NCBI RefSeq assembly: GCF_004614235.1
Contig: NZ_SPVH01000006.1
Span: 1,116,001-1,180,000, forward strand
Reading direction: 5' to 3'
Length of the DNA: 64,000 nt
Origin: Brevundimonas intermedia
Lineage (GTDB): Bacteria; Pseudomonadota; Alphaproteobacteria; Caulobacterales; Caulobacteraceae
The notes below the pieces were generated by a model. That model was given only the letters and a program-made list of their open reading frames with translations. It was not told the origin of the DNA and made no database searches. The translations under genes were made by a program, and so were the position numbers. Positions 4,883 to 6,775 of the stretch are shown here, in pieces (position 1 is the stretch's first letter; each line of letters begins with the position of its first letter).

Positions 4883-6775
4883 ATGAGCGCGCGCCCCACC
4901 CTGATCTTCGACTTCGATTCGACCCTGGTCGATTTCGAGACCCTTGAGGCCCTGGCCGACATCGCCTTGGCCGATGCGCCGGGCGCGGCCGAGACACGGG
5001 CGCAGATCGCGGCCCTGACCGATCAGGCCATGGCCGGAGAGCTGGAGTTCGGCGAGGCTTTGCGCCGCCGCCTGGCTTTGCTGCCCCTGACGCGCGCCCA
5101 TGTCGCGGCTCTGGCGCATACGGCATCGGATCATCTGACGGCGTCCGTCCGCCGCAACCTGAACTTCTTCCAGCAGAACAAGGGCAAGGTCGTCATCCTC
5201 TCCGGCGGCTTCCGCGAGGTGATCGCGCCGGTCGCTGAAGAGTTGGGCGTCTCGCCCGACCGCATCCTGTGCAACGACGTGGTCTATGACGCGGACGACC
5301 ACGTGATCGGCGTGGACGACGCCAATCCGCTGTCGCACGCCAACGGCAAGCCGGCCGCCATTCACGCGCTGAACCTGTCGGGCCGGGTGGTCATGATCGG
5401 CGACGGCTGGAACGACGCCGAGGTCAAGATCGCCGGCGCCGCCGACGCCTTCTACGCCTTCACCGAGGTGGTGCGCCGCGCGCCGGTGGTTCAGGTCGCC
5501 GACGCCGAGGCCGCGTCACTGGACGAGGTGCTGCACGCCGAGGGTCTGGTCGGTCGCTGGTCCTTCCCGCGCAGCCGCATGAAGATGCTGCTGCTGGAAA
5601 ACATCCACCCCGCCGCCGTCGAGCGGCTGGAGGAGGCGGGCTATTCGGTCGAGACGCAAAAGGGCGCCCTGGACGAGGACGACCTGATCGCCGCCATCAA
5701 GGGCGTCCATGTGCTGGGCATCCGCTCCAAGACCACGGTCAGTCGTCGCGTGCTGGAAGAGGCCGACCGGCTGATGGCCGTCGCCGCCTTCTGCATCGGT
5801 ACCAACCAGATCGATCTGGACGCGGCGTCGGATCACGGCGTGGCGGTGTTCAATGCCCCCTATTCGAACACCCGCTCCGTGGTCGAACTGGCCATCGGCC
5901 TGATGATCGTCCTGATGCGCGACGTGGCGGACAAGTCGGCGGCCATGCATGTCGGCAAGTGGAACAAGTCCGCGACGGGCTCCAAGGAGCTGCGCGGCAA
6001 GACCCTGGGCATCGTCGGCTATGGCGCGATCGGCAGCCAGTTGTCTGTGCTGGCCGAGAACCTGGGCATGCGGGTGCTGTTCTACGACCTGTCGGAACGG
6101 CTGGCCCTGGGCAATGCCCGGCGGATGCGTTCGCTGGATGCCCTGCTGGGCGAAAGCGACGTGGTCACCCTGCATGTCGATGGTCGCAAGGATAACGCCA
6201 ACATCTTCGGCGCGGCCCAGTTCGCCAGGATGAAGGAGGGCGCGCTTTTCCTGAACCTGTCGCGCGGCCATGTGGTCGATGTCGGCGCCCTGTCCCAGGC
6301 CATGGGGTCGGGCCGCGTCGCCGGGGCCGCCGTGGACGTCTTCCCGGAAGAACCCCGCACCAACGCCGATCCGTTCGAAAGCCCCCTTCAGGGCCTGCCC
6401 AACATGATCCTGACCCCCCACATCGGCGGCTCGACCGAGGAGGCGCAGGAAGCCATCGCCGAGTTCGCGGCCGAGCGGCTGCTGGGCTATCTGAATCGCG
6501 GCGACACCACCTTCAGCGTGAACCTGCCGAACGTGCAGTTGGCCGAGGTGTCCGGCACGCACCGCATCCTGCACATTCACCGGAATCAGCCGGGCGTTCT
6601 GGCCGAGCTGAACCGGGCGCTGGCGTCGGCGGGTCTGAATATCCTGGGCCAACACCTGAAGACGGACGAGCGCACCGGCTATGTCATCACCGACGTGGAT
6701 CGCGACTACGATCCCGAAGCCTTGCGCGAACTCAAGACGCTGCCGGGCACGTTGAAGTTCCGCACTTTGCAGTAG
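4883..6775 (+). CDS. serA: Fused phosphoserine-phosphatase-like / phosphoglycerate dehydrogenase (SerB-SerA)
   Basis: The 630 residues form two enzymes of serine synthesis in one chain. Residues 1-225 are a HAD-IB phosphatase: nucleophile motif DFDST with D10 and D12, SGG at 107-109, and GDGWND at 173-178. Residues 233-630 are a D-3-phosphoglycerate dehydrogenase: NAD motif GYGAIG at 379-384, catalytic R461 (NLSRG), E489/E490 and H513 (TPHIGGSTEEAQ), and a C-terminal ACT domain from about 555 that would bind serine for feedback control. All key residues are intact in both halves. These are steps 1 and 3 of the pathway; the transaminase SerC is not nearby. The substrate of the phosphatase half is inferred. 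Confidence 0.9.
   Translation: MSARPTLIFDFDSTLVDFETLEALADIALADAPGAAETRAQIAALTDQAMAGELEFGEALRRRLALLPLTRAHVAALAHTASDHLTASVRRNLNFFQQNKGKVVILSGGFREVIAPVAEELGVSPDRILCNDVVYDADDHVIGVDDANPLSHANGKPAAIHALNLSGRVVMIGDGWNDAEVKIAGAADAFYAFTEVVRRAPVVQVADAEAASLDEVLHAEGLVGRWSFPRSRMKMLLLENIHPAAVERLEEAGYSVETQKGALDEDDLIAAIKGVHVLGIRSKTTVSRRVLEEADRLMAVAAFCIGTNQIDLDAASDHGVAVFNAPYSNTRSVVELAIGLMIVLMRDVADKSAAMHVGKWNKSATGSKELRGKTLGIVGYGAIGSQLSVLAENLGMRVLFYDLSERLALGNARRMRSLDALLGESDVVTLHVDGRKDNANIFGAAQFARMKEGALFLNLSRGHVVDVGALSQAMGSGRVAGAAVDVFPEEPRTNADPFESPLQGLPNMILTPHIGGSTEEAQEAIAEFAAERLLGYLNRGDTTFSVNLPNVQLAEVSGTHRILHIHRNQPGVLAELNRALASAGLNILGQHLKTDERTGYVITDVDRDYDPEALRELKTLPGTLKFRTLQ

Follow-up and report, generated by a model that had tools for sequence, protein, structure and literature searches.

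The window analysed here, a stretch of 64,000 nucleotides from Brevundimonas intermedia, carries on its forward strand a gene (positions 4883–6775, stop codon included) in which a phosphatase half and a phosphoglycerate dehydrogenase half are joined in one protein. Our preferred reading, to which we give a probability of about 0.86, is that this fusion would encode an enzyme with two activities in the phosphorylated serine pathway, standing in for the canonical long SerA and the SerB of the Caulobacteraceae. Judging from the sequences compared, the fusion is real and conserved, and the bifunctional enzyme is very probably functional. Both halves are of known kinds; of interest are the combination of steps 1 and 3 of the pathway, the replacement of two genes at once, and a faster evolution of SerC in the lineages concerned.

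Two enzyme domains in a single reading frame

The frame starts with an ATG at position 4883, ends with a stop codon at 6773–6775, and consists of 630 codons plus the stop, with no internal stops. The initial annotation had described a SerB-type phosphatase and a SerA dehydrogenase in one protein of 630 residues, and indeed the frame is uninterrupted and profiles of both kinds were found in it. Its N-terminal half (residues 1–226, positions 4883–5560 of the forward strand) is a HAD-IB phosphatase similar to human PSPH, as indicated by Pfam, NCBIfam, profile matching, a residue map, and a structure model, whereas the C-terminal half (residues 227–630, positions 5561–6772, same strand) is a type II, ACT-bearing phosphoglycerate dehydrogenase (PGDH), as indicated by Pfam, NCBIfam, and the match to E. 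coli SerA. The Pfam models Hydrolase (residues 6–180) and HAD (8–179) in the former, and 2-Hacid_dh (236–547) and 2-Hacid_dh_C (338–515) in the latter, all scored above their cut-offs; taken together, Pfam and NCBIfam locate the HAD-IB phosphatase at roughly residues 6–200. The ACT domain that had also been proposed occupies residues 562–625 (positions 6566–6757, forward strand), where the ACT_AHAS_ss model exceeded its cut-off and the plain ACT model gave 26.4 bits, slightly below its 27.

Family assignment was firm for the dehydrogenase half, which scored 637.7 bits against PRK11790 (NF008759; cut-off 404) over residues 225–629 and aligned in its whole length with E. coli SerA (type II PGDH, 1yba/1psd, PRK11790) at an E value of 1.4e-126; the E. 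coli enzyme stands alone, whereas in the fusion 226 phosphatase residues come first. The phosphatase half belongs to the HAD-IB family (TIGR01488, 67.4 bits, cut-off 45) and scored 83.4 bits with the serB equivalog model TIGR00338, whose cut-off is 144.15, so it is not classed as a SerB of that family and is predicted only to work like a phosphoserine phosphatase. Its top profile match among solved structures was human PSPH (1nnl, E 1.2e-52), with which it shares the active-site residues; the human protein is a stand-alone enzyme, about 29% identical to the phosphatase half. A structure model of this half alone (pLDDT 94.4) gave a Francisella PSP-like protein as its top fold match (TM 0.86), followed by human PSPH 6hyj (TM 0.83, rmsd 2.3). 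The full-length model (pLDDT 81.4, pTM 0.59) fitted the E. coli-type SerA entries only at rmsd 17–19, and for that reason no domain arrangement is derived from it.

Residue by residue, alignment with E. coli SerA placed the dehydrogenase catalytic residues R461, E490, and H513 opposite R240, E269, and H292, and W360, K362, N329, R281, and D402 opposite W139, K141, N108, R60, and D181, positions that we take to be functionally important in the E. coli enzyme. R62 of E. coli SerA is replaced by K283, and the serine-site residues H344, N346, and N364 correspond to H566, N568, and N586 in the ACT domain of the fusion. In the phosphatase half, D10, D12, E19, R63, S107, K156, D174, and D178 are the counterparts of human PSPH D20, D22, E29, R65, S109, K158, D179, and D183. 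HAD-IB motifs I–IV (DxDST, S, K, and GDGxxD) are thus represented by D10, D12, S107, K156, D174, and D178, while E19 and R63 correspond to the two residues that presumably hold phosphoserine by its amino and carboxyl groups. The active-site residues named beforehand were recovered at D10, D12, the SGG at 107–109, GDGWND (D174, D178), R461, and H513; for the glutamate, which had been given as E489/490, the counterpart of E. coli E269 is E490, and E489 drops out. Conservation was followed in an alignment of 28 fused proteins, made up of the window's protein and 27 chosen from 56 rows, several of them duplicates of one locus. The NAD-binding aspartate D402, R461, E490, and H513, as well as the three serine-site residues, were invariant in 28/28, and the same was true of the mapped residues of both halves with the exception of S107, kept in at least 90%.

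As for the surroundings, hslO (Hsp33) lies upstream of the fusion on the reverse strand (positions 3062–4168) and is found near it in other loci too, at no more than about 3 kb in 12 of the 15 further fused loci compared, seven of which also have phoB in the stretch; phoB and hslO recur near the fusion in other genera. Further upstream in the window (98–3026), a phosphate-uptake cluster contains pst- and phoU-like frames, identified by reading, and a PhoB above the TIGR02154 cut-off. The downstream frame (6814–8691) reads as a GDSL-type lipase-like protein with an autotransporter-like C-terminal part.

Distribution of the fusion and fate of the canonical genes

In a family sample of 149 Caulobacteraceae genomes, the window's included, drawn evenly from a larger group, 49 carried the full-length fusion: 23/24 in the window's genus (g1, taken as Brevundimonas), 22/22 in g14 (taken as Asticcacaulis, both identifications with tree support), 2/2 in g3, and 1/1 each in g7 and g9. 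A scan of named contigs confirmed at least 24 loci, with contigs from Brevundimonas (L091, L092, L094–L102), a Caulobacteraceae MAG (L093), and Asticcacaulis (L103–L105); similar architectures may occur in Bacteroidota. Among 105 pairs of 15 proteins, the median dN/dS was 0.35 for the phosphatase half and 0.21 for the dehydrogenase half, values to be read with the high synonymous distances (medians 0.63–0.80) in mind, and purifying selection seems to act on both halves. These ratios, together with the full-length presence in 49/149 genomes, argue that the fused frame is not a chance product.

Beyond the family, the phosphatase half alone was used as the query, and a fusion was judged from a strong match plus the frame length among the matches listed. 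Strong matches in fusion-length frames were obtained in 3/386 genomes of the class sample, 6/397 of the phylum sample, and 51/398 of the order sample, all falling within Caulobacteraceae; the order's 51 comprise 28 that the family sample also showed in full length and 23 for which frame length is the evidence. No fusion outside Caulobacteraceae appeared among the matches listed for these sampled genomes, in line with the initial annotation's statement that most bacteria encode the two enzymes separately. For long frames with a weaker match, 22 stretches were inspected, 19 from the class and phylum samples (chosen by eye from the matches listed, the frames measuring at least some 510 aa) and three from a sister family (G1111, G902, and G1092); two of the 22 were short and at a contig end. 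None contained a fusion, and a SerA match was absent in 21/22.

The canonical SerB (TIGR00338 above its cut-off) was present in 91/149 genomes of the family sample, that is, in 91 of the 100 non-fusion genomes, but in 0/49 fusion genomes and 0/2 genomes with a split pair. It was also missing from G092, G016, G008 (a fragment), and G023, G065, G110, and G120, these last four with completeness of 63–89%. The neighbourhood of serC was compared in 41 loci (21 canonical, 18 fusion, G092, and G016). A long SerA of about 525 aa adjoins serC in 21/21 canonical genomes fetched, with purA next within the stretch in five of these, whereas in 18/18 fusion genomes fetched serC is followed by purA, 0.1–2.7 kb on or with overlapping matches, and no SerA match lies beside serC in the stretch. 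From this reduction of the serC–serA pair to serC before purA, and from the lack of canonical SerB, it follows that the fusion replaced both canonical genes: both are lost, and the fusion is in their place. The canonical proteins serve the same pathway steps and differ from the fusion in being encoded by separate genes, in the long type of their SerA, and in a SerB that surpasses the TIGR00338 cut-off.

In an RpoB tree built from 40 chosen genomes, a branch (SH-aLRT 97 by the quick method) set the 19 canonical ones apart, and a single change on the tree was enough to account for fused plus split versus canonical when two genomes with neither were left out. Most likely, the fusion was established once, in a single ancestor shared by Brevundimonas, Asticcacaulis, and closely related genera.

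The window's own genome (3.34 Mb, 7 contigs, completeness 100) agrees with this replacement. A stand-alone serA or serB, on which the initial annotation had made its reading depend, was not found in it with the models used. Three other strong 2-hydroxyacid dehydrogenases, considered as a second PGDH, were 29% identical and reached no PGDH cut-off; their best fit was a glyoxylate reductase model, under every cut-off. PF02826 gave seven weaker matches besides the strong ones, and the absence of another PGDH covers the matches assigned to a family. The sole other TIGR00338 match in this genome was KdpB. SerC is a separate gene immediately before purA (C2:127730–128848; TIGR01365, 472 bits, cut-off 448), a match that ruled out a genome without SerC, as had been suggested by its not being listed with PF00266. 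The eight PF00266 matches were two cysteine desulfurases, two glycine dehydrogenase subunits, two cystathionine enzymes, HisC, and one more protein, read as kynureninase-like and with no NCBIfam family at 1e-40.

Split and unfused relatives

In two g17 genomes (G017, locus L087, and G031, locus L088), the halves are separate genes with a 4-base overlap (TTGA), which means that the covalent link is dispensable there; no TIGR01365 match for SerC was obtained in either of them. Trees put g17 within the fused group, and holding the fused rows together apart from g17 was not rejected (AU p 0.196, 0.106, and 0.258). We lean towards g17 representing a re-split fusion rather than an unfused ancestor.

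Phosphatases related to the fused one were found as separate genes elsewhere. The sister family f234 of the order (46 genomes over E 1e-20) has a separate phosphatase gene of 29–42% identity, with a short SerA at most 0.9 kb away, tail to tail, in 7 of the 18 loci fetched; this SerA groups with the fused SerA versus those of E. coli and UBA2136 (99/95). Another alphaproteobacterial family offers, in G302 (locus L252), a SerB-like gene and, after it on that strand but in a different frame, a short SerA sharing 51% identity with the fused SerA, the two being neighbours but unfused. A MAG labelled Proteobacteria UBA2136 presents a phosphatase–SerA–aminotransferase run with 4-base overlaps (L107:3471–6483), its SerA above the PRK11790 cut-off and its aminotransferase nearest to serC_3, below the cut-off of that model. 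The order is SerA–phosphatase–aminotransferase in a Planctomycetota MAG and SerA–phosphatase–gcvT (gcvT by reading) in a gammaproteobacterial MAG, both with a SerA above the TIGR01327 cut-off. The company of SerA kept by these unfused relatives supports a phosphoserine phosphatase role. The TIGR00338 cut-off was reached by none of five relatives scanned singly, nor by one f234 protein.

An unfused phosphatase closely related to the fused one (41–42% identity) was also noticed in a Candidatus Moraniibacteriota MAG (L106:460–1125), for which transfer or misbinning is conceivable; no SerA or SerC lies near the relatives of this MAG and of G695 in the stretch seen. The phosphatases of f234, UBA2136, the fused group, and Moraniibacteriota are separated from the rest by a branch (99/96), within which their branching order is only partly settled.

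Predicted function and its alternatives

In the proposed scheme, the C-terminal half would oxidise 3-phosphoglycerate to 3-phosphohydroxypyruvate, with serine inhibiting through the ACT domain, the separate SerC would make phosphoserine, and the N-terminal half would dephosphorylate phosphoserine to serine. The joining of steps 1 and 3 had been proposed at the outset, and domains and residues agree with it, the activities themselves being predicted. As the serine-site residues of the ACT domain are kept, serine feedback on the dehydrogenase is likely; that it extends to the phosphatase as well is no more than possible. From its relatedness to E. coli SerA, we expect the protein to form a tetramer. 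Four phosphatase domains would then be attached to it, and both steps would come under one expression level, perhaps around a shared intermediate pool. Both activities, the serine feedback, the oligomer, and any channelling are thus predictions from sequence. Counting for this bifunctional reading are the catalytic and substrate residues kept in both halves, E19 and R63 among them; counting against it are the missed TIGR00338 cut-off, the use of a PSPH-like domain on another substrate in an algal glycerol enzyme, and the g17 genomes, with their separate halves and lack of a TIGR01365 SerC.

The algal case deserves comparison. The bidomain GPDH of Dunaliella salina (6iuy) and Chlamydomonas likewise has a PSPH-like HAD domain N-terminal to an NAD-dependent dehydrogenase (PMC6039019; on the PSP-domain GPDH of green algae, see also PMC7468427 and PMC3633914), but its dehydrogenase is of another family, its two steps are consecutive, and its product is glycerol. 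The fusion does not belong with it, its dehydrogenase being a D-2-hydroxyacid dehydrogenase of PRK11790. As the algal domain is described as working as a glycerol-3-phosphatase (6iuy; PMC6039019), the phosphatase half of the fusion could also be imagined to use another substrate, such as glycerol-3-phosphate or 3-phosphoglycerate, with phosphoserine handled by an enzyme not recognised here. The TIGR00338 score would fit such a role, and the search for a further phosphoserine phosphatase covered SerB-like proteins, unrelated ones of the ThrH and histidine-phosphatase types being known in other bacteria and gut bacteria having several non-orthologous phosphoserine phosphatases and aminotransferases (PMC9026213). 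We consider it improbable, given that the substrate residues of PSPH are kept, that unfused relatives adjoin serA, and that canonical SerB is absent from all 49 fusion genomes of the sample.

A second alternative concerns SerC, whose behaviour in the fusion lineages was unexpected. Its TIGR01365 scores were 450–524 bits in the 49 fusion genomes versus mostly 655–766 for full-length first copies elsewhere, and the median ratio of SerC to RpoB distances was 4.38 in fusion genomes (136 pairs; SerC loci L086, L142–L149, L192–L199, and L211) versus 2.15 in canonical ones (153 pairs), the pairs not being independent. Thus, relative to RpoB, the pace of SerC evolution in fusion lineages is about double that in canonical relatives. 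SerC also has a role in vitamin B6 synthesis. In G092, a 99% complete genome of the window's genus (SerC region L150), serC precedes purA, and no fusion, SerB over the cut-off, or convincing PGDH was found; G016 (L151) resembles it, with a SerC-like match of 280 bits, under the cut-off, before purA. These two strains are possibly serine auxotrophs or users of another route, and may keep SerC for vitamin B6.

Under this second alternative, a shortcut, the phosphatase half would act on 3-phosphohydroxypyruvate, which its own dehydrogenase yields, to give hydroxypyruvate, which another aminotransferase would turn into serine, leaving SerC mainly for vitamin B6. The fused steps would then be consecutive, and the twofold faster SerC, its absence by TIGR01365 from the two g17 genomes, and the persistence of a SerC match in G092 and G016 (in the latter under the cut-off) where neither PGDH nor SerB was found would all be in keeping with it. 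Yet E19, aligned with the human residue that presumably holds the amino group, is invariant in 28/28 fused proteins, and none of the eight proteins that PF00266 matched in the window's genome was recognised as a serine-glyoxylate or serine-pyruvate aminotransferase, which makes this route very unlikely. That the phosphatase half is a degenerate leftover, with the dehydrogenase alone working, is hardly credible: across 15 proteins from the genus it does average 66% identity, versus 81% for the dehydrogenase half, and a few homologues differ at S107 and at one SGG glycine, but D10, D12, K156, D174, and D178 are invariant in 28/28, its dN/dS is 0.35, and no other SerB was found in the genome.

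Returning to the bifunctional enzyme, a bolder version of it, which we hold to be rather doubtful, is a serine metabolon in which the serine-bound ACT tetramer would gate both activities and SerC would have been reshaped to dock, making the three steps one regulated unit; if this were true, the roughly twofold faster evolution of SerC would be a trace of adaptation.

No description of a bacterial SerB–SerA fusion was found in the literature searched, mostly without subscription papers, and it may be described elsewhere. The PGDH–PSAT fusion of oomycetes and brown algae (PMC5715807) is likewise a serine-pathway fusion that includes phosphoglycerate dehydrogenase, but it unites steps 1 and 2 in eukaryotes, whereas the Brevundimonas fusion unites steps 1 and 3 in bacteria.

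Because the serB model stays below its cut-off on the fusion, genomes of this kind can seem to be without the last step of serine synthesis. In this branch of the Caulobacteraceae, two non-consecutive steps of a textbook pathway lie on one polypeptide, and both canonical genes have been displaced. The fusion provides a natural setting in which to test if feedback by the end product can pass to a second active site and, with its separate neighbours, fused genes, and separate overlapping genes, a series in which enzyme fusion can be studied.
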